Shown here in pieces: positions 6,420 through 19,686 of a stretch of 32,467 bases of DNA. The position numbers were made by a program, and so were the translations under genes. A model generated the notes under the pieces. The model ran no database searches, was not told the DNA's origin, and saw nothing but the letters and a program-made list of their open reading frames with translations. Numbering within the stretch: the first letter of the stretch is position 1; the number at the start of each line of letters is the position of its first letter. The stretch is from Vicinamibacterales bacterium (lineage in GTDB: Bacteria; Acidobacteriota; Vicinamibacteria; Vicinamibacterales; SCN-69-37), in the NCBI GenBank assembly GCA_030827135.1, contig JAURFE010000010.1, positions 1-32,467 on the forward strand, given 5' to 3'.

Positions 6420-7091
6420 TTAGTGGTGTTTCCCGATGAGATACAGCAGCGGGAAGAGGAAAATCCAGACGATGTCGACGAAGTGCCAGTAGAGGCCCGT
6501 GACTTCGACCGGTGCGAAGTAATCGGCGTTGAACTGGTTCTTCCAGGCCATCCGCAGAATGATGAAGAGGAGCACGATGCCCACGACCATGTGCAGGGCG
6601 TGGATGCCCGTCATCATGAAGTAGAGCGAGAAAAACAGCTGCTGCGCGGGCTCGCGGGCCGGGTCGAAGCTCGATCCAGGCACGAGGTGGTGCTCGAACT
6701 TCGCCGCGTATTCGAAGTACTTCACGATGAGGAAGATCGAGCCGAAGATGATCGTCAGAATCAGGTTGGCAATTTGCGCCATCCGGTGCCCGACCTGCGC
6801 CGCCCGCACCGCCAGCGCCATCGTCAGCGACGAGACGATGAGTACCAGAGTGTTGACGCCGCCGAGCACTTCGTTGAGCTCGTTGCTGCCGGCCAGCCAG
6901 GCGTCCGGATACATGTTCCGGTAGAGCAGATAGGCCATGAACAGGCCGCCGAAGAACATGACTTCAGTGACGAGGAACACCCACATCCCGAGGATGGAGG
7001 CCTCGAGCTGCTGCGCCATGTTGTGGAAATGGTGCTGCAGCTTCGGGTGGTGTTCCTGATGAGCGTCTGCGTGCAGGTTGGAAGCTGACAC
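6420..7091 (-). CDS. coxC: cytochrome c oxidase subunit III
   Basis: A 223-residue, multi-helix subunit III of the haem-copper oxidase, an inner-membrane protein that stabilises subunit I and its D-type proton pathway. Family landmarks are visible: LGMWVFLVTEVMFFGGLF in the first TM, HALHMVVGIVLL in the middle, and the C-terminal GLYWHFVDIVWIFLFPLLYL. The WHFVDxVW block is diagnostic of COX3. The N-terminus is rich in His (HADAHQEHHPKLQHHFHN), a feature of some caa3 clusters. The start is 1 nt past the coxA stop, implying translational coupling. Identity is secure. Confidence 0.95.
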   Translation of the reverse strand: MSASNLHADAHQEHHPKLQHHFHNMAQQLEASILGMWVFLVTEVMFFGGLFMAYLLYRNMYPDAWLAGSNELNEVLGGVNTLVLIVSSLTMALAVRAAQVGHRMAQIANLILTIIFGSIFLIVKYFEYAAKFEHHLVPGSSFDPAREPAQQLFFSLYFMMTGIHALHMVVGIVLLFIILRMAWKNQFNADYFAPVEVTGLYWHFVDIVWIFLFPLLYLIGKHH

Positions 7092-7092
7092 G

Positions 7093-8730
7093 TTAGACCT
7101 CCTCTGCCTTCTTCACATGGCCGGCGTTGGCGCTGCGGCCTGCGTAGTTGTATGCGTCTTCGGTCACGATCGGATCGTGCTCGAAGTTCAGCGTGATCGG
7201 CGGCGACTGAATCTGCCACTCAAGCCCGGTCGCACCCCACGGATTCGCCGGCGCATTCCGTTCCTTGAACAATGACGCCACCAGGTAGAACACGATCAGC
7301 GCGTAGCCGACACCCAGCACGCCGGCACCGGCGGTCGACAGCACATTGAGAATCTGAAAGTCCTCCGGATACGCGTGATACCGGCGCGGCATCCCGAGGT
7401 AGCCCAATACAAACTGCGGGAAGAACGTCAGGTTGAATCCGACAAACACCAGGATCGCCGAGATCTTGCCCAGCGTTTCCGGATACATCCGGCCCGTCAT
7501 TTTCGGCCAGTAGAAGTGCACGCCGCCGAGGAACGCCATGATGGCGCCGCCGACCATGATGTAGTGGAAGTGCGCCACGACGAAGTAAGTGTCGTGCAGG
7601 TGAACGTCGAGGCCCATCGTGCCGAGGAACAGGCCCGTCAGACCGCCGATGAGGAACAGGCCCATGAAGCCGATGACCCAGTAGGTCGGCGATTCCCAGG
7701 TGATCGACCCCTTGTACATCGTGGCCGTCCAGTTGAACGTCTTCACGGCCGACGGCACGGCGACAATCATTGTGATGATCGAGAACACCAGGCCGGCGTA
7801 GATGGACTGGCTGCTCACGAACATGTGGTGGCCCCACACGAGGAATCCGATGATGGCAATCGCCAGGCTCGAATACGCCACAAAGCTGTAACCGAAGATC
7901 TGCTTGCGGGAGACCGCCGCCACCAGCTCGGAGACGACGCCCATGCCCGGCAGGATCATGATGTAGACGGCCGGGTGCGAGTAGAACCAGAACAGATGCT
8001 GGAACAGGACCGGGTCGCCGCCGGCGCGCGGATCGAAGATCGCAAAGCCCATCGCGCGTTCCGCAAACACCAGCAGGATGGTGATGGCGACCACCGGCGT
8101 GCCGAGAATCATGACCAGGCTGGTCGCGTAATGCGCCCAGATGAACAGCGGCAACCGGAACCACGTCATGCCCGGCGCCCGCATCCGGTGAATCGTGACG
8201 ATGAAGTTGAAGCCGGTCAGGATGGACGAGAACCCGGTGATAAAGACGCCCAGCGCCGCGAGCACCACGTTGGTGTTCGAGGCAATCGAACTGTACGGCG
8301 TGTAGAACGTCCAGCCGGTGTCCACGCCGCCCATGAACACCGCGGCGAGCGTGAAGACGGCACCGATGACGTAGATGTACCAGCTCAGCAGGTTGATGCG
8401 CGGGAATGCGAGGTCCTTCGCACCAATCTGAATCGGAATCAGGAAGTTGCCGAGAGTGGCCGGAATCGACGGAATCAGGAAGAAGAAGATCATCACGACG
8501 CCGTGCAGCGTGAAGAGCTTGTTGTACAGGTCCGCCGTGAGGAAGTCGCCCTTGGGCGTCAGCAGTTCCGTCCTGATGCCGGCCGCGAAGAGGCCGCCGA
8601 TCGCAAAGAACACGGTGACCGAGATCAAATACATGATCCCGATCCGCTTGTGGTCCTTGGTCAGCAACCACGACCAGATGCCGTGCGGGGCGTCCAGATA
8701 ACTGGGTGAATTCTGAGTGCCGTGAGTCAT
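7093..8730 (-). CDS. coxA: caa3-type cytochrome c oxidase subunit I, A2 subfamily
   Basis: A 545-residue catalytic subunit with about 12 TM helices. It reduces O2 to water and pumps protons. Ligands visible: H252 (CuB) in YSHPAVY with Y256 as the expected His-Tyr crosslink partner, H301/H302 (CuB) in WGHHMF, and H387/H389 in VAHFHY for haem a3 and haem a. The lysine in VKTFNW fits the K pathway. The glutamate of canonical HPEVY is alanine (A254), and Y250-S251 precede H252. This YS motif defines A2-type oxidases such as the Rhodothermus and Thermus caa3 enzymes. The start is supported by the [18 protein letters not shown]-terminus. It follows coxB by 15 nt. Confidence 0.97.
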
Positions 8731-8745
8731 AACGGTCCTTGCGCC

Positions 8746-9702
8746 TTACTGTCCGCCCGCCGGGGCCGCCGGCGGGGTGGCCTTCAACGTCTTGATATAG
8801 GCGATGAGCTGCATGAGGTTTTCCTCGCTCACCGTGCCCTGGAAGGTCGGCATGATTGGCTGGAAGCCAAGCACGACCTTGGCCTGCGGATTCACGATGG
8901 ACTCGCGCAGGTAGTTGTCGTCGGCGATCACCGTGCGGCCGTCCATCAGCCGCACTTCGTGGCCAAACACGTCGGCCAGCACCGGGCCGCGGCCCGTCGT
9001 GTCGGTCTTGTGGCACGTGATGCACGCCAGATCCGTGAACAGGCGCTCGCCGTTCTCAACCGCGGTCCCCGTGGACCGGCCGCCCGCCAGCCAGGCCTCG
9101 TAGTCGTGCTCCTCCATGGCGATGACCTGTCCGATCATCCCGGAGTGCTGCGTGCCGCAGTATTCGGCACAGAAGATCTGATACGTGCCCGCCTTCGTCG
9201 CGCGGAACCACATCGTGGTCAACTTGCCGGGCACGGCGTCCATCTTCACGCGGAACGCGGGGATGTAGTAGTCGTGCAGCACGTCCTCGGATCCGAGCGT
9301 GATCTTGACGTTGCGATTGATCGGCACGTGCAGTTCGTTGATCTCGCGGACGCCGTCCGGATGCTGCACCTTCCACATCCACTGCTTGCCCACCACGAAG
9401 ACTTCCATCGAATCGGCCGGCGGACGCGCGATGCGGAAATACAGGTCCGCGCCCCACACGAACATCGCCATGGCGAGAACGAACGGAATCACCGTCCACA
9501 ACAGTTCGAGCGCGATCGAACCGTGGATGTCGGCGCCGACCTCATCCGGGTGACGCCGGCGGAACTTCACCGCGAAGAACACGACAAGTGCGGACACCAG
9601 CACGGCGAAGAACGAACACACCGCGAGGATGAAGAAATAGATCAGGTCGACTTCGTACGCAATCGACGAGGCGGCCTCTGGGAACAGGGGGAAACTGGAC
9701 AT
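8746..9702 (-). CDS. coxB: cytochrome c oxidase subunit II with fused cytochrome c domain
   Basis: A 318-residue subunit II that receives electrons. Two N-terminal TM helices (about residues 18-45 and 63-88) are followed by the periplasmic cupredoxin domain. The CuA site is complete: C178, C182, H186 and M189 in CAEYCGTQHSGM, with an upstream His in NELHVPINR. A C-terminal class I cytochrome c domain follows, with haem site CITCH (C227, C230, H231) and a likely Met ligand in PIMPTF. The fusion makes this a caa3-type enzyme, taking electrons directly from ACIII through bound cytochrome c. It starts at the base next to the sco stop. Confidence 0.97.
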   Translation of the reverse strand: MSSFPLFPEAASSIAYEVDLIYFFILAVCSFFAVLVSALVVFFAVKFRRRHPDEVGADIHGSIALELLWTVIPFVLAMAMFVWGADLYFRIARPPADSMEVFVVGKQWMWKVQHPDGVREINELHVPINRNVKITLGSEDVLHDYYIPAFRVKMDAVPGKLTTMWFRATKAGTYQIFCAEYCGTQHSGMIGQVIAMEEHDYEAWLAGGRSTGTAVENGERLFTDLACITCHKTDTTGRGPVLADVFGHEVRLMDGRTVIADDNYLRESIVNPQAKVVLGFQPIMPTFQGTVSEENLMQLIAYIKTLKATPPAAPAGGQ

Positions 9703-10578
9703 CTACCGAGTACCCGTTGCGGTCGATGCGACCGCGGTGCGCTGCCGGCGATCGCGCCGCAGGTTGACAAAAAGGAATGCGCCAAGCCCCACCATGGTCA
9801 ACACGGCGCCAATCCGGACAAAGGACATGATCGCCAGGCTGTACTTGCCCGTGGCGGGGTCGTAATGAAAGCAGTACAGAAGCGCCTGATCCACCAACGT
9901 GCCGATCTGGCCCTCGCCGGCGGCCGTGACGGCGAACCGGAAATCCAGCGGCGCAAATTCAACGCCGTAGAGGTACTTCGACACCTTCCCCTGTGCGGTG
10001 AGCACGGAGATGGCGGCGGGATGGGCGTACTGGTCAATCGCTTCGTCGTAGACGTACCGGAAACCAACCGCATCAGCCAGCCGATCGATGGACGTCTGAC
10101 GGCCGGTCAGAAAATGAATACCGGCCTCCGCCGTCGGCCGCTGATAGTGCTTCACATAACCGGCCTTCTTTGCGAGAGCCATCGCGGGCGTTTCACCCGG
10201 ATCAAAGCTGACGACGACGAGGTCGAAGTCGCGGCCGGCGTCAATCTTGACGGGCTCCATCGACGAGAAGAGACCGTTCAGTACCTGCGTGCAGAGCATC
10301 GGGCACTCGTAATACACCAGCGCCAGCACGACCGGGCGTTTGCCGAAGTAGTCGCCCAGCACCACATCGCGGCCCTGTTCGTCGGTGAAGGGCAGATCGA
10401 GCGGCACAGGCGAATCGAGCTTCTGATCGATGCGCACTTCCTTGAGGATCGGCAACGGTGCCATCGCCGGCGTGCCGGGCGCACTCGACCCGGGCATCGC
10501 CCGCTGTGCCGACATCGACACCACGCCCGCACCGGCCCACAGGACCGCCGCACACGCGAGGAGTCGTCGCAGGTTCAT
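9703..10578 (-). CDS. sco: SCO family copper chaperone for the CuA site
   Basis: A 291-residue SCO1/SenC protein delivering copper to subunit II. It has a signal peptide or anchor (residues 1-24), a thioredoxin fold with the copper motif CPMLC (C92, C96) and the distal His ligand H186 in DQYAHPA. Unusually for the core family it carries a C-terminal TM helix (around residues 249-272, FVRIGAVLTMVGLGAFLFV) with a basic cytoplasmic tail, so it is held in the membrane at its C-terminus. The gene lies 2 nt after the small membrane protein and directly abuts coxB, its presumed client. Confidence 0.95.
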   Translation of the reverse strand: MNLRRLLACAAVLWAGAGVVSMSAQRAMPGSSAPGTPAMAPLPILKEVRIDQKLDSPVPLDLPFTDEQGRDVVLGDYFGKRPVVLALVYYECPMLCTQVLNGLFSSMEPVKIDAGRDFDLVVVSFDPGETPAMALAKKAGYVKHYQRPTAEAGIHFLTGRQTSIDRLADAVGFRYVYDEAIDQYAHPAAISVLTAQGKVSKYLYGVEFAPLDFRFAVTAAGEGQIGTLVDQALLYCFHYDPATGKYSLAIMSFVRIGAVLTMVGLGAFLFVNLRRDRRQRTAVASTATGTR

Positions 10579-10580
10579 GC

Positions 10581-11012
10581 CTACTGTCCCCCCGCCCGCA
10601 CAGGGAGGCCCTGCTTGAGCACGAGTTCCTTGGCCACATCAACGGGCACGCGGACGGTGCCGGCGTTCTGGTCCACCCACCCGTAGGTCGTCAGCATTTC
10701 GACTTCGTGAGCGCGGAACTTCTTGAGGTTGGCCGGTTCATTCACCAGAAGCGGAGACGGCGACGCGTTGCTCGACACGATGCGGCCATCCACGATCGTG
10801 GGCGTGACGGGTGGCGCCGCCAGCGGATTGCGCACGGTGTCATTGGTCACCGAGCGGTGCTCCATGAACAGGAAGAAGCCCCACACAATGAGGTAACAGG
10901 CCAGCGTGACGATGGTCAGGACGATCATCGAGACACCGAGGCTCTTGTACTCGATCCCGTCGCCCTCGGTCCGGGCCGGCGCGGCGTGGCCGTGGTGATT
11001 AGTGTCCGCCAT
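10581..11012 (-). CDS. small single-TM protein of the ACIII/caa3 operon, function unknown
   Basis: A 143-residue protein. The ATG at 11012 is chosen because it gives MADTNHHGH followed by a clean TM helix (about residues 26-50); the upstream in-frame extension is actF antisense-like sequence. After the helix comes a linker, then a conserved-looking C-terminal block with YGWVDQNAGTVRVPVDVA. I recall similar W-D-x-x-x-G-x-x-R-x-P blocks in small proteins next to SCO and cytochrome oxidase genes in Acidobacteriota and relatives, but I know no defined role. It overlaps actF by 14 nt and precedes sco by 2 nt, so it is translated with the complex. A small ACIII subunit or an oxidase assembly factor are both plausible. 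Confidence 0.75.
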   Translation of the reverse strand: MADTNHHGHAAPARTEGDGIEYKSLGVSMIVLTIVTLACYLIVWGFFLFMEHRSVTNDTVRNPLAAPPVTPTIVDGRIVSSNASPSPLLVNEPANLKKFRAHEVEMLTTYGWVDQNAGTVRVPVDVAKELVLKQGLPVRAGGQ

Positions 11013-12207
11013 TGGCAACTGCATCCTTGAAGTACGGGTCGTTGGCCGGCACCAGAGACCGGCTGCCCAGATTGCGGTAGAACAGGAACAGCCACGGCGC
11101 CGCGAACGCGACCACCATGGCAAAGTCCATCCAGTGCAGCGTGTATTCGTGCCGGAACACCGGCCCGATGGTCCACGCGAAGTCGACCACGCGCATGATG
11201 AGCACGAGGAACGCCACGCGGGAGAGCACGCGGCCATGACGCTTCAGGTTGCGCGACAGCAGCAGCATGAACGGCAGCACGAAGTGGCCCACCAGCACCA
11301 CCACGGCCCACGGCGCCCAGTGGCCCTGCAGGCGTTCGATGTACCACGGAATTTCTTCCGGCAGGTTCGCGGACCAGATGATGAGCAGCTGCGACACGTT
11401 GAAGTAGGCCCACAACATGACGAAGGCCAGCATCAGCTTGCCGTAGTCGTGGAACCGCTCCGCGTCAGCAACCTCGGAGATCGGCTTCGAGTTCGACAGG
11501 CCCTGCAGCACCAGAATCGTGAACGCCAGTGTGGAGAGCCCCTGGCCGCCCAACACCAGCACGCCGAAGATCGTCGAATAGAAGTGCGGGTCGAGCGACA
11601 TCACCCAGTCGACGCTCATGAAGGTGATGGCGAGAATGTGCAGGACCATGCCGGGCCCCGACACCACGCGGAAGCGGCGGTCCTTCGGACCGGGCCCGAG
11701 CGGTGCACTATCGTCCTGCTCCTTCGACCACTTGCTCAGCAGCAGGGACAACCCGATCCAGATCACGAAATAGATCGCGGCGCGGACGTAGAAAAACTCG
11801 ATGTCGAGATAGGCTGCCTTCAACTGGATGATGGGATCATCCACGGCTTCCGGGCGCGCCCACTTGTAGAGCGTGGGCATGTTCATCGCAATCGGAATAA
11901 ACAGGAGCGCCATCAGCGGCAACGTGCGCGTGCTGGCTTCAAACACGCGGCGGGCCACCAGGCCCCACGCGCCGCCGCTCAGGTACTGCACCATCAGCAG
12001 CGACAGCGAACCCAGCGAGATGCCGATCCAGAACATGTAGGCGATCAGGTAGGACTGGAGGAACTGCGACAGGTCCACCATAAAATACCCGGCCGCGACG
12101 GCCACGATGCCCACCGCGCCAACCATGACGCCGCGATTGGACAGACGGCTCAGGTCGGCGACCGGCCGCTCCTTCAGCAACGCGGCTGCGTTGAACTCCC
12201 CACTCAT
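10999..12207 (-). CDS. actF: alternative complex III quinone-binding-like membrane subunit ActF
   Basis: A 402-residue polytopic protein with about ten TM helices, paralogous in fold to ActC (NrfD/PsrC-like), corresponding to the 'quinol:cytochrome c oxidoreductase quinone-binding subunit 2' family. Recognisable parts are SYLIAYMFWIGISLGSL near residue 55, VDWVMSLDPHFYSTIFGVL around residue 205 and YFNVSQLLIIWSANLPEEIPWY around residue 270. The last two blocks are typical of ActF. It acts in the inner membrane with ActC. Whether it binds quinol itself is not shown by sequence. The start overlaps the actE stop by 4 nt (ATGA). Confidence 0.93.
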   Translation of the reverse strand: MSGEFNAAALLKERPVADLSRLSNRGVMVGAVGIVAVAAGYFMVDLSQFLQSYLIAYMFWIGISLGSLSLLMVQYLSGGAWGLVARRVFEASTRTLPLMALLFIPIAMNMPTLYKWARPEAVDDPIIQLKAAYLDIEFFYVRAAIYFVIWIGLSLLLSKWSKEQDDSAPLGPGPKDRRFRVVSGPGMVLHILAITFMSVDWVMSLDPHFYSTIFGVLVLGGQGLSTLAFTILVLQGLSNSKPISEVADAERFHDYGKLMLAFVMLWAYFNVSQLLIIWSANLPEEIPWYIERLQGHWAPWAVVVLVGHFVLPFMLLLSRNLKRHGRVLSRVAFLVLIMRVVDFAWTIGPVFRHEYTLHWMDFAMVVAFAAPWLFLFYRNLGSRSLVPANDPYFKDAVANGGH

Positions 12208-12851
12208 CGGTGAATCTCCCCGGCAGCTGGCGTGGCCCCGGCGGCTGGAACCGCCGTCGCGCCCTTGCGCAACTGATCAAGCACGTCGGCCGGCAGATCC
12301 GCGGTGGTGCCCTGCCGGCTGGCCTGCAGCGCGCGCACGTAGGCCACAATCCGCCAGCGATCCTCCACGGGAATCTGCGAGCGGTAGTCCGGCATCACGC
12401 CAAAGCCGTTTGAAATCACGTCGTAGAAATAACCGACCGGCGCAAGTCGCAGCCGATCAATGTGCATGGACTGCGCCTGACGATAGCCGCGCTGGACGAC
12501 CATGCCGTTGCCCTCACCGGTCTTGCCGTGACACGGGGCGCAGAACACATTGAACCGTTCCTGGCCCCGATCCAGATCCGCGCGGGTGATCGCAAACGGG
12601 AATGCCGTCACCGGCAGGCCGGCGGCATCCTTCCCGGTGTGCAGGTACGCGTCCTCATTCAGGTGGCCGCGCGCGACGGTGCCGGCCATCAGCGGACGAG
12701 CCGCGCTGCCGTTCGCGAACAAATCGGACGCTTCGAGCGGGTCATACCGCGGCGCATCGTGCATGTCCTGACGGCAGCCCGCGGACACCGCCGCTGTGAG
12801 TGCCAGGCCTGCCATCAGGCGCCGGCTGCGTGAACCAAGTTTAGTGATCAA
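12204..12851 (-). CDS. actE: alternative complex III monohaem cytochrome c lipoprotein ActE
   Basis: A 215-residue periplasmic cytochrome c. The N-terminus is a lipoprotein signal with the lipobox ending at C26 (VSAGC), so it should be membrane-anchored by lipid. The single haem site is CAPCH (C104, C107, H108) in a class I cytochrome c fold; a Met ligand is likely in GVMPDYRSQIPVEDRW, a block typical of this family. In ACIII this subunit passes electrons from the pentahaem ActA toward cytochrome c or the oxidase. The C-terminus is low-complexity (Ala/Pro-rich). The start overlaps actD by 11 nt. Confidence 0.94.
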   Translation of the reverse strand: MITKLGSRSRRLMAGLALTAAVSAGCRQDMHDAPRYDPLEASDLFANGSAARPLMAGTVARGHLNEDAYLHTGKDAAGLPVTAFPFAITRADLDRGQERFNVFCAPCHGKTGEGNGMVVQRGYRQAQSMHIDRLRLAPVGYFYDVISNGFGVMPDYRSQIPVEDRWRIVAYVRALQASRQGTTADLPADVLDQLRKGATAVPAAGATPAAGEIHR

Positions 12852-13392
12852 GCTTCACCACTTCCCGGGCATGGAGACCCGCGAGAAACGCCCGCGTTGT
12901 GTCTTCGTTGTAGCGCGGGTCGGCGGCTTCGATGGCCAGAAAGAACGAATCCTGACTGGCCAGACTGAAGCGCTTCGCATTGAAGACCGGGTGATACGGC
13001 AACGGCAACCCGTTGAGGGCAATCATCGAGATCACGGCGGAGAAGGCCGCCAGCAGAATCGTCGTTTCGAACGTGGGCGGAATGAACGCCACCCAGGAAT
13101 GGAACGGACGGCCACCAATGTTGATGGGATACGCAATGACCGACGTCCAGAACTGAAGACTGTACCCGCCGATCAGGCCCATGATGCCGCCAGCCAGCAC
13201 GAACTTGGGCACCAGGTGCTCCTTCATGCCGAGCGCCTCGGCCAATCCGTGGATGGGCATCGGGGAAAACGCGTCGGTCCTGGTGTACCCGGCTTCCCGC
13301 ACCTTGTGCGCGGCATCCAGCAGCGCCTGCGCGGACTCGAACTCGGCCATCAGGCCGTAATGCGACGTGGTGTCAGCAGCATGGTGGGCCAT
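12841..13392 (-). CDS. actD: alternative complex III membrane subunit ActD (DUF3341)
   Basis: A 183-residue protein of the DUF3341 family. An N-terminal soluble alpha/beta part (residues 1-60, including GLMAEFESAQALLDAAHKV) is followed by two TM helices (about residues 63-82 and 108-130). The loop between them has the family's PINIGGRPFHSWVAFIPPTFE block. ActD is a structural subunit without cofactors. Its ATG shares one base with the actC stop (TGATG), a coupling arrangement. Confidence 0.94.
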   Translation of the reverse strand: MAHHAADTTSHYGLMAEFESAQALLDAAHKVREAGYTRTDAFSPMPIHGLAEALGMKEHLVPKFVLAGGIMGLIGGYSLQFWTSVIAYPINIGGRPFHSWVAFIPPTFETTILLAAFSAVISMIALNGLPLPYHPVFNAKRFSLASQDSFFLAIEAADPRYNEDTTRAFLAGLHAREVVKLDH

Positions 13393-14795
13393 CAGTGCGC
13401 CCCTCCCTCGGATTTGTGCTTCGGCGACGCCTCAGGCAACAGCGTGCGCATTTCGAAGATCGAAATCATCGGCAGCACGCGGACAAACAGGAACATCAGT
13501 GTCAGGAACAAGCCGATGGTGCCGAAGAACGTCATGAAGTCCCACCGCGTGGGGTAATACATGTCCCACGACCCGGGCAGGAAGTCGCGGTGCAGACTCG
13601 TCACGATGATGACAAACCGCTCCAGCCACATCCCGACGTTGACAAACATCGACACGGTGAACAGGATGGCGATGTTGCGGCGGAACTTCTTCACCCACAA
13701 CAGCTGCGGCACGATGAAGTTGCACAGCAGCAGCATCCAGTAGGCCCAGGCGTACGGCCCGCTCACAATACGGTTCATCAACATGAACCGCTCGTACTGA
13801 TTGCCGGAATACCACCCGAAGAACAACTCGCACGCGTAGCCGTACACGACGATGAGCCCGGTCACGAGCGTGACCTTCGCCATGTTCTCGAGGTGGCGCA
13901 TCGTGATGAAGTCGTGCAGCTTGTACATCGCGCGCAGCGGAATCGCGAGGGTCAACACCATCGCAAACCCGGCGTAGATGGCGCCGGCGACAAAGTAGGG
14001 CGGGAAGATCGTCGCGTGCCAGCCCGGCAGGTTCGAGACGGCGAAGTCGAACGACACGACCGTGTGCACCGAGAGCACCAGCGGCGTCGAGAGACCGGCC
14101 AGAATCAGGTACGCCGTTTCATACCGGAACCAGTGCCGCGCGGATCCGCGCCAGCCCATCGCCAGAATGCCGTAGAGGCGCTTCTGCCACGGCTTCTCCG
14201 CCTTGTCGCGGAAGGTCGCCAGGTCGGGAATCAGGCCGACATACCAGAACAACGCCGACACCGTCGCGTACGTCGAAACGGCGAACACGTCCCAGATCAG
14301 CGGGCTTTTGAAGTTCGGCCACAACCCCATCACGTTCGGGTAGGGGAACAACCAGTACGCGGCCAGCCACGGACGGCCGGTGTGGAAGATGGGAAAGATC
14401 GCCGCACAGGCCACGGCGAACAACGTCATGGCTTCGGCAAAGCGGTTGATGGACGTGCGCCAGTCCTGCTTGAAGAGCAGCAGAATCGCGGAGATCAACG
14501 TGCCGGCGTGACCGATGCCGATCCACCAAACGAAGTTGATGATGTCAAACGCCCAGCCGACCGGGACGTTGTTGCCCCAGATGCCAACACCCTTCAGCAC
14601 GAGGTAACACAACGACACCGTCAGGACCGTCAGAAGCGTAAAGCCCACGGCCATGAACACAAACCACGCGGTGGGCGTGTTCTTCGAGAACACGATCCCC
14701 ACGAGCTTGTCGGTCATGCTCTTGTAGCTATGTCCCGGCGCGAGGACCGGGACAGCGCCGAGCGGGTCTTGCGGGTTGGGGGTAACGTCCACCAA
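13392..14795 (-). CDS. actC: alternative complex III quinol-binding membrane subunit ActC (NrfD/PsrC-like)
   Basis: A 467-residue, about ten-TM protein of the NrfD/polysulfide reductase C family. It is the ACIII subunit thought to hold the quinol oxidation site near the ActB iron-sulfur clusters. Visible blocks include VWWIGIGHAGTLISAILLLF in TM2, PIFHTGRPWLAAYWLFPYPN in the following loop and LVLSVHTVVSFDFAVSNLPGWH in the middle. The second and third carry family-typical His and Asp residues proposed for quinol binding or proton transfer. It follows actB by 21 nt and is coupled to actD. Confidence 0.95.
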   Translation of the reverse strand: MVDVTPNPQDPLGAVPVLAPGHSYKSMTDKLVGIVFSKNTPTAWFVFMAVGFTLLTVLTVSLCYLVLKGVGIWGNNVPVGWAFDIINFVWWIGIGHAGTLISAILLLFKQDWRTSINRFAEAMTLFAVACAAIFPIFHTGRPWLAAYWLFPYPNVMGLWPNFKSPLIWDVFAVSTYATVSALFWYVGLIPDLATFRDKAEKPWQKRLYGILAMGWRGSARHWFRYETAYLILAGLSTPLVLSVHTVVSFDFAVSNLPGWHATIFPPYFVAGAIYAGFAMVLTLAIPLRAMYKLHDFITMRHLENMAKVTLVTGLIVVYGYACELFFGWYSGNQYERFMLMNRIVSGPYAWAYWMLLLCNFIVPQLLWVKKFRRNIAILFTVSMFVNVGMWLERFVIIVTSLHRDFLPGSWDMYYPTRWDFMTFFGTIGLFLTLMFLFVRVLPMISIFEMRTLLPEASPKHKSEGGAH

Positions 14796-14816: not shown

Positions 14817-17831
<3,015 letters not shown>

Positions 17832-17855: not shown

Positions 17856-18515
17856 TCAGCGATGACACACGGAGCAACTGGTCATGTGCTCGGTGCCCGC
17901 CACGTTGTATTCCTTCTTGAGAGCCCGGCCGAGCTCCAACTGATTGGCCGGGGCCTCGTACGCCATGTTGAACACTTCCGACCGCGGCCGCAGGTACTTC
18001 TCAGGCGCGCGATGGCAGTCCAGACACCATTCCATCTGCATCGTTGTGGCCTGATAGGTCAGAGCCATCTTGTCGACGGGTCCGTGGCACGTGGCGCAGC
18101 CGACGCCCTGTTTCACGTGGATTTGGTGGTTGAAATAGACGAAGTCGGGAAGGTCGTTTACCCGAACCCAAGTCAAAGGAGTGTTATTCCTGAAGCTCGC
18201 CCGCACCGGCTCAAGGAGCGGTGCGTTCGCCCAGATCTGCGAATGGCAGTTCATGCAGGTCTTGGTCGGGGGAATTCCGGCGAACGAGGAGTTCTCCACA
18301 GACGTATGGCAATACCGACAGTCAAGGCCGACGCCGCCAACGTGGTGGGCATGGCTGAACTGGATCGGTTGCTCGACAAACTCGTTTTGACGCGTCACCC
18401 AGGAGGAACGCATCAGTGTGAAGATCACCCATCCCAGGAACAGGACGAGGGTCAACACACCAAAGAGGCTCGAGCGAGCAGCAGCGTTGGCGCTTTTCGG
18501 AAAAATCTGGCTCAT
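17856..18515 (-). CDS. actA: alternative complex III pentahaem cytochrome c ActA
   Basis: A 219-residue membrane-anchored multihaem cytochrome. An N-terminal TM helix (residues 17-35) leads to a periplasmic domain with exactly five CxxCH sites: C66-C69-H70, C87-C90-H91, C140-C143-H144, C164-C167-H168 and C214-C217-H218. The last lies one residue before the C-terminus. Blocks such as FSHAHHVGGVGLDCRYCH and YFNHQIHVKQGVGC match ActA. It takes electrons from ActB iron-sulfur clusters and passes them to ActE. It is the first gene of the operon; the promoter must lie in the 235-bp gap shared with the ABC transporter genes. Confidence 0.97.
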   Translation of the reverse strand: MSQIFPKSANAAARSSLFGVLTLVLFLGWVIFTLMRSSWVTRQNEFVEQPIQFSHAHHVGGVGLDCRYCHTSVENSSFAGIPPTKTCMNCHSQIWANAPLLEPVRASFRNNTPLTWVRVNDLPDFVYFNHQIHVKQGVGCATCHGPVDKMALTYQATTMQMEWCLDCHRAPEKYLRPRSEVFNMAYEAPANQLELGRALKKEYNVAGTEHMTSCSVCHR

Positions 18516-18686
18516 AGCGGGCTAAAAAGCGCCCCTAGCCTACCTTGATCGACAGGCAATTGCACACACGCGCACCAAGCTCCAACCTGGACCCGAAATT
18601 TTGGCCAGAATGTCTCGCGCACGTACAGCGTCGCTCTCGATCGGTTGTCCCGGGTGGGCGGCGTACCCGAGGCAGCCCGGATATGA

Positions 18687-18702
18687 TGTGAAAGGTTTCA
18701 CA
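18687..18702. promoter_or_regulatory. perfect CRP-type operator (TGTGA-N6-TCACA)
   Basis: The 16-bp sequence TGTGAAAGGTTTCACA is an exact palindrome outside its central GG and matches the core consensus of CRP-type sites. It lies 48 bp before the ABC ATPase start and 171 bp before the actA start, inside their shared divergent region. A CRP/FNR-family or similar homodimeric regulator is inferred. TetR- or MarR-type operators can look alike. Confidence 0.5.
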
Positions 18703-18750
18703 AGCCTGTCAATACCGACCAAAAAGGTCCAAGCTTCACCCGGAGTCCCC

Positions 18751-19686
18751 ATGTCCACTTCCGCAGCCATCGCCGTCAACGGCGTTTCCAAACGTTTCGG
18801 CGAGCACCAGGCCGTCAATAACGTCTCGATCGAGGTTCCGTCCGGGTCCATCTACGGATTCATCGGACCCAACGGGTCCGGAAAAACCACCACGATCCGC
18901 ATGATCATGAACATCCTGGTGCCTGATGCCGGCTCGATCCATGTGCTGGGGAAGGCGAGCGCGGCCGAGGTCCGGGATGACGTGGGCTACCTGCCGGAAG
19001 AACGCGGTCTCTACAAGAAGATGACGGTGCGCCGCGTCCTGCGCTACTACGGGCAACTCAAAGGCAAGGCCGCGCACGAGGTGGACACGGGCATGAAGGA
19101 ATGGCTCGGCCGGCTCCAACTGACCGACTGGATGGACAAACGCGTCGAACAACTCTCCAAAGGCATGGCGCAAAAAGTCCAGTTCATTGCGGCCGTCGTC
19201 TCCCAACCCAGGCTGCTGATTCTTGATGAGCCGTTTTCGGGCCTGGACCCGGTGAATGCGGAGGCGTTGAAGGACGCCGTGCTGGAGATGCGGCGCCGTG
19301 GCACGACCATCGTGTTTTCGACACACGATATGAGCGCGGCTGAACGCCTGTGTGAACGTATCTTCATGATCTTCAGAGGGAACAAGGTGCTCGACGGCAC
19401 GCTCGACGACATCCAGGCGGAATACGGCCACGATACCGCCCGCGTCCGGGTGAGCGGCGGGGTGTCGATGCTGCAGGGGCTCCCCGCCGTTGACGCGATC
19501 AACGACCACGGCAACTATCAGGACGTGCGGCTCAAGGGAAACCCGCAGGCATTCCTCCAGGCGCTCGTGCAAAAAACCGACGTCCAGCAGTTCGAGATTC
19601 GTCGGCCATCGCTGCACGACATCTTCGTGAGAATTGCGCGGCCCACCGCGGATGACCTGCGCGCCAATGAAGGAGGTGCACAGTGA
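18751..19686 (+). CDS. ABC transporter ATP-binding protein (ABC-2 exporter type)
   Basis: A 311-residue ATPase energising the permease encoded next. Motifs: Walker A GPNGSGKT (39-46), signature LSKGM (135-139), Walker B LLILDE (155-160) with FSGLDP, and the switch histidine in STHD near residue 191. A C-terminal extension after residue ~215 is typical of NatA/DrrA-like subunits of ABC-2 exporters. The ATG at 18751 is preferred over an in-frame ATG 150 nt upstream because a GGAG lies 5 nt before it, homology-type sequence begins there, and the longer form would run over the CRP-type palindrome. The substrate cannot be inferred. Confidence 0.93.
   Translation: MSTSAAIAVNGVSKRFGEHQAVNNVSIEVPSGSIYGFIGPNGSGKTTTIRMIMNILVPDAGSIHVLGKASAAEVRDDVGYLPEERGLYKKMTVRRVLRYYGQLKGKAAHEVDTGMKEWLGRLQLTDWMDKRVEQLSKGMAQKVQFIAAVVSQPRLLILDEPFSGLDPVNAEALKDAVLEMRRRGTTIVFSTHDMSAAERLCERIFMIFRGNKVLDGTLDDIQAEYGHDTARVRVSGGVSMLQGLPAVDAINDHGNYQDVRLKGNPQAFLQALVQKTDVQQFEIRRPSLHDIFVRIARPTADDLRANEGGAQ

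Follow-up and report, generated by a model that had tools for sequence, protein, structure and literature searches.

The actA locus and its palindrome

The window (the whole 32,467-nucleotide stretch of DNA analysed) carries on its minus strand a run of respiratory genes that begins with actA (17856-18515), which codes for the multihaem cytochrome c subunit of alternative complex III (ACIII). It is followed by actB (14817-17831; 1004 aa, with Fe-S domains), actC (13392-14795; NrfD family), actD (12841-13392; PF11821), actE (12204-12851; cytochrome c domain) and a probable actF (10999-12207; 402 aa), which has no Pfam match and is named by position. Further along the same strand lie genes for a SCO1/SenC family protein (9703-10578) and for oxidase subunits II (8746-9702; with a fused cytochrome c domain, as in caa3), I (7093-8730) and III (6420-7091). 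We infer a single operon that extends through the oxidase genes; if so, the sco and oxidase genes would fall under the control predicted below for actA to actF, with actA as the first gene of the controlled operon. On the plus strand, a gene for an ABC-2 exporter ATPase (18751-19686) reads divergently from actA.

The palindrome under study, TGTGAAAGGTTTCACA, lies between the divergent genes at 18687-18702. An earlier reading made from the sequence alone (the sequence-only reading) had described it as an exact match to TGTGA-N6-TCACA, the core of the E. coli CRP site, placed 48 bp from the ABC ATG (18751) and 171 bp from the actA ATG (18515, minus strand); sequence and spacings are all confirmed. 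This is the sole perfect instance within the window, where six sites match with at most two mismatches, the perfect box included, and the remaining five carry two mismatches each. Genome-wide expectations were computed from the base composition of the window. For the 10 fixed bases of the CRP core, about 1.3 perfect matches are expected in the 3.24 Mb genome, as against three present and none for a reversed-pattern control; on its own, the 10-base core is weak evidence. The longer form TGTGAAA-N2-TTTCACA, with an expectation of about 0.0015 per genome, is present twice, as the window box and at C33:90539, and is not chance.

A similar picture emerges with the 18-mer TTGTGAA-N4-TTCACAA, which at two or fewer mismatches has exactly two sites in the genome - the window box and C33:90538, each with one mismatch - while the reversed 18-mer is found at one place. 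This pattern is the consensus for operators of Rex, a repressor that senses NADH/NAD+, given as TTGTGAANNNNTTCACAA in a quotation in PMC5317091, and PMC5355995 gives the versions of S. aureus, S. coelicolor and S. avermitilis. The window box matches 13 of its 14 fixed bases, and we predict a Rex operator (ROP) at 18686-18703, reading TTGTGAAACCTTTCACAT on the minus strand.

A scan of 18480-18800 for sigma-70-like promoters found one, on the minus strand and directed toward actA (score 10/12; mean of 0.1 in shuffles), and no plus-strand promoter at the box. Its -35 hexamer, TTGACA, lies at 18707-18712 and its -10 hexamer, CATCAT, at 18683-18688, with a spacer of 18 bp; the form CATnAT is seen in most relatives. 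The predicted operator occupies most of this spacer plus the first half of the -10 hexamer, which its end overlaps, and this predicted placement is a repressor position. Two other elements are seen on the minus strand here. A family-conserved TAGGCTA..GGGCG block at 18530-18542, shortly before actA, may be a ribosome-binding region or a second promoter element, and a terminator-like stem with a T run lies at 18728-18744, upstream of the actA -35, though the mean of 0.5 in shuffles means that it is possibly due to chance.

Distribution of the box

Retention of the motif upstream of orthologous actA genes had been suggested as a check by the sequence-only reading, and the box is indeed kept. Our first set comprised 60 genomes (the window's own and relatives), in 41 of which actA orthologs scored above 280 bits, with a readable upstream region in 40; the remaining 19 genomes, with matches below 280 bits or none, are not part of the upstream count. 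The count of 40 likewise excludes G002, whose contig stops 15 bp upstream of actA, and the second copies of complex III that three genomes carry (L090-L092), all without the box. A box with at least 12/14 matches is present in 28 of the 40 upstream regions, 25 of these boxes matching at 13/14; in shuffled upstream regions, at least 12/14 was reached in 5 of 4000 and 13/14 in none. In 25 of the 28, the box is preceded by TTGACA at a distance of 2-3 nt. Across the readable upstream regions of the window's own family (n=13), the sequence has otherwise diverged, and its long invariant blocks are TTGACA, the half-sites and the -10, apart from the short block before actA.

No variation is seen among the 28 boxes at positions 3, 5-7 and 11-17 of the 18-mer, part of this invariance being built in since boxes were picked by likeness to the consensus. 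Among the invariant bases are A7 and T12, which are free for CRP and needed by Rex, and a CRP-type box without them could still pass at 12/14; positions 8 (A in 25/28) and 11 (T in 28/28) were unscored.

The box is absent from 12 of the 40 upstream regions (G022, G014, G055 with 11/14, G041, G052, G049, G043, G017, G056, G033, G048 and G057). Of the genomes concerned, nine encode a canonical Rex; the exceptions are G017, where Rex is missing, and G048 and G057, whose only Rex is divergent. Set against presence of the regulator, the box occurs in 28/37 actA upstream regions from genomes with canonical Rex (PF06971 E <1e-13) as against 0/3 from those without (Fisher p 0.022, a small count with relatedness ignored).

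A second set, which overlaps the first and is not independent of it, consisted of the best 80 of the actA matches listed among named genomes, of which 79 were readable (L164 was too short). Here the box at 12/14 or better is found in 20 of the 79 upstream regions, one of which (L138) has TTGTGTAATTTTACACAA 270 bp upstream and may represent another motif. None of the 26 upstream regions labelled Terriglobia, Terriglobales, Acidobacteriaceae, Acidobacteriales or Sulfotelmatobacter in this set carries the box. A second group (L101-L105, L112, L116, L117 and L147; compare L055 and L061) carries a TTGCGAAA or TTGAGAAA..TTTCACAA box, which looks as if it sits after the apparent -10, that is, near the start site. 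In the actA promoters of another group (L130, L140, L157 and L163), a conserved TTGATCCTTTTTTCACAA stands ahead of a TGGTACAA element, with a single Rex half-site kept. The named records nearest to the window are for the most part metagenome bins of Acidobacteria. One record, L095 (VFZF01000001.1), is titled Acidimicrobiia, yet its actA shares 94% identity with the window's and other near records are titled Acidobacteria, so the label looks wrong.

The composite TTGACA-N2-4-TTGTGAA-N4-TTCACA occurs at 21 places in 18 of 396 genomes of the phylum, against none for the reversed control, and all 18 genomes fall among the 42 of the same order, the window's own included. Thirteen of the 21 places are actA promoters. 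Three lie before LolA-like genes (PF17131) in genomes of another family (G359, G234 and G046); the gene that follows is of MMPL type, over the Pfam cut-off in G359 and, as a partial gene, just under it in G234, and is presumed to be so in G046. Two places precede an ABC ATPase with a MacB/FtsX-type permease (G030, G049) and two a metallo-beta-lactamase-fold gene (G019:C28, G047:C9), and the last, G007:C1, is a LolA-type promoter with an apparently different gene behind it.

The second box of the window's own genome (L003:1500-1517, equivalent to C33:90538-90555) lies within a TTGACT..CATAAT-type promoter before a LolA-like gene (PF17131), which is followed by a gene for a 776-aa MMPL-family protein (PF03176 E 4.1e-36) and then by a DUF1302-like gene just under the Pfam cut-off. 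Box, promoter form and genes are kept in 6/6 sister genomes (G001-G006), and G008 (L206) has a 12/14 box with the same LolA-like/MMPL genes; for G007, G009 and G011, which have a like box, the sequence read gave no LolA-like match. Some ten bases past the -10 of the LolA-like/MMPL promoter, L187-L190 and L192-L194 share a short conserved leader close to CGTTCCCGGCCC.

Neither of the genome's two 18-mer sites adjoins rex, cyd, nuo or atp genes. Among 14 genomes of the family that were searched, seven (G001, G002, G003, G005, G006, G010 and G012) have a box near the end of the ATP synthase operon that carries atpI-atpB; it lies between a VWA gene and atpI-atpB in sister genomes, and two further genomes have it close to atpB (L196:1539-1556, with matching places in L197-L200, L204 and L205). 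Here atpI is named by translation and place, and the assignment for G005 (L205) is drawn from matching surroundings of the box, the atpB stretch lying outside the piece read. For the window's own genome, a third Rex site, ahead of the atp operon, was considered and rejected, the candidate being degenerate (8/14).

Autoregulation of rex is common, though not universal, and is not treated here as a defining trait of a Rex regulon. In none of the 11 genomes inspected, the window's own among them, did the sequence read around canonical rex contain a box (best 9-10/14), and autoregulation of canonical rex was set aside for these genomes. Boxes do adjoin divergent or second rex-like genes in five genomes (G048, G057, G039, G052 and G033), and it is likely that these genes are autoregulated through them. 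These boxes are located in L032, L033 and L034 (around 1484-1535), at G052:C52:6906-6947 and at G033:C39:96239, several of them as close pairs.

From these sites, we consider the chances about even that the Rex regulon has shrunk in this acidobacterial family: at two or fewer mismatches, with weaker sites uncounted, the window's own genome would have two operators, one for the ACIII-caa3 operon and one for the LolA-like/MMPL exporter operon, and NADH state would set both. If true, NADH state couples the terminal electron-transfer chain with envelope lipid or lipoprotein export. To our knowledge, Rex coupling of respiration to envelope export has not previously been shown.

Candidate regulators

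Which protein, then, reads the box? The sequence-only reading had proposed a regulator of the CRP/FNR family tying respiration to carbon, cAMP or redox state. Family searches for CRP/FNR and Rex were run on the genome, which is rated 100% complete. The domain PF00027 gives three matches in only two open reading frames, one for an FAD/NAD oxidoreductase (844 aa) and one for a mechanosensitive channel (497 aa), and the same search recovered proteins in 10/14 control genomes, E. coli among them. The single match to HTH_Crp_2, at 28.3 bits against a cut-off of 27, is a protein of Lrp/AsnC type. These searches thus found in the genome no CRP/FNR protein, that is, none combining a cyclic-nucleotide-type sensor domain with a Crp-type HTH. 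The 844-aa protein (L208:568-3099, on C11 of the window's own genome) is composed of two cyclic-nucleotide domains, a BFD-type [2Fe-2S] domain and the FAD/NAD oxidoreductase.

There is one canonical Rex gene in the genome (on C51, about 226 aa; PF06971 E 6.9e-18). Its product scores 246 bits against the NCBIfam Rex equivalog NF003993 (cut-off 217), exceeds the cut-offs of several NCBIfam Rex models, and has a Rex as its best PDB match (1.7e-48), with 8 of 9 matched sequences being Rex or carrying its older name; a QxRKDLxYFGxxGxRGxGY stretch is common to the genome Rex and PDB Rex in both alignments shown. Several marks of a Rex regulon were found at the level of sequence: an operator match, a Rex protein with winged helix and NAD domain, overlap with the promoter and, in part, conservation. 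A CRP regulon would leave the N6 free; the core is present, with the inner A and T conserved in all 28 boxes. Since no CRP/FNR regulator was found, the genome has one clear Rex and the operator matches at 13/14, the regulator is very probably Rex and not CRP.

The competing accounts can be weighed against this evidence. We give almost no credence to a chance palindrome: some 1.3 perfect 10-base matches per genome would be expected, but the rarity of the longer form, the two-site count for the 18-mer and retention upstream of actA far above the shuffles lead us to reject it. Regulation by a CRP/FNR-family activator or repressor, linking respiration to cAMP or oxygen through TGTGA-N6-TCACA, has in its favour the exact match to the CRP core. 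Yet PF00027 and HTH_Crp_2 matches are confined to the oxidoreductase, the channel and the Lrp/AsnC-type protein, the inner A..T, to which CRP is indifferent, is invariant, and a position between -35 and -10 is a poor one for an activator; we reject this account, for which no matching protein was found in the genome, as highly improbable. A different regulator with a Rex-like site would accommodate the nine genomes that have canonical Rex and lack the box at actA, as well as the missing autoregulation of canonical rex in the 11 genomes looked at. Set against it are the match to the published Rex consensus, the atp operon as a co-target, as in Streptomyces, and the boxes adjoining divergent or second rex-like genes, and we regard it as improbable, if slightly less so than CRP/FNR.

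It had further been suggested that the spacing could allow control of both divergent genes, and one may ask whether Rex, bound at the box, governs the ABC exporter as well as actA. The ABC ATG is 48 bp from the box, and a divergent ortholog of the ATPase gene adjoins 15 of the 28 boxed actA loci (stretch read about 1-2 kb). At the other 13, however, no ABC ortholog was found within the stretch read, and TTGACA still precedes the box in 10 of those 13; conversely, G022 has the ABC gene and no box, and the lone promoter faces actA. Because 13/28 boxed loci lack an adjacent ABC exporter, the box goes with actA and the respiratory operon. The neighbour counts and promoter direction thus leave control of the exporter unsupported, both as the main role of the box and as the exporter half of the original suggestion, and we consider joint control of actA and the exporter rather doubtful.

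Proposed mechanism and comparison with known Rex and CRP systems

In all likelihood, the palindrome is a Rex operator inside the sigma-70 promoter of an actABCDEF-sco-caa3 operon, which Rex would repress until NADH rises. In the Rex family, a low NADH/NAD+ ratio leads to binding and repression, and NADH releases the protein (PMC5355995); by analogy, the same behaviour is presumed at this box. Bound Rex would mask the spacer between the two hexamers together with the beginning of the -10, which would shut RNA polymerase out of the promoter. A rise in NADH relative to NAD+, as happens when too few electrons reach oxygen, would cause Rex to bind NADH and leave, and its release would yield more quinol:cytochrome c reductase and caa3 oxidase. 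Of the earlier idea that the box ties the aerobic chain to redox state, what survives is a conserved operator that would link ACIII-caa3 to redox state, with Rex taking the place of CRP/FNR as the predicted regulator.

An improbable account based on cAMP and CRP is thereby replaced by a specific and testable one, in which operator, promoter and regulator are named: in a largely uncultured group of Acidobacteriota, ACIII-based aerobic respiration is probably set by the NADH/NAD+ ratio via Rex, and Rex-type boxes extend to an envelope export operon. We know of no ACIII target of Rex. Ravcheev and colleagues, in J Bacteriol in 2012, are said to have described Rex target sets as lineage-specific, and Acidobacteria are reportedly not among the phyla named in their abstract. 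In the literature searched, including PMC5317091, PMC4215793 and PMC5615132, we found no report of Rex control of ACIII or of Rex in Acidobacteria, and nothing on regulation of alternative complex III, though related operons of other phyla may have been the subject of a previous prediction. The type of switch is known; Rex control is apparently new for ACIII and for Acidobacteriota.

Compared with the CRP/FNR sites of E. coli, the window box has the core in common, but differs in keeping the inner A..T, in its repressor-type position and in that no CRP/FNR protein was detected. The Rex regulons of Ravcheev et al. 2012 share the same consensus, as quoted in PMC5317091. That source also describes Caldithrix, which has both Rex and ACIII, with a Rex site assigned to a hydrogenase cluster. 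The closest likeness is to Streptomyces, where Rex operators (S. avermitilis atpI, nuoA1, rex and cydA1; S. coelicolor cydABCD) share the 18-bp consensus of the window box. Three of four footprinted operators in S. avermitilis (rex, atpI and nuoA1) lie between and over -35 and -10, as predicted here, the fourth (cydA1) being downstream of the start (PMC5355995). Aerobic respiratory operons are targeted there as well, and the atp operon, a proven Rex target in S. avermitilis with atpI and following genes repressed, is shared with relatives of the window (PMC5355995). Unlike in Streptomyces, the main predicted target in this member of the Acidobacteriota is ACIII with a caa3-type oxidase, and rex lies beside moaC, outside any haem operon.
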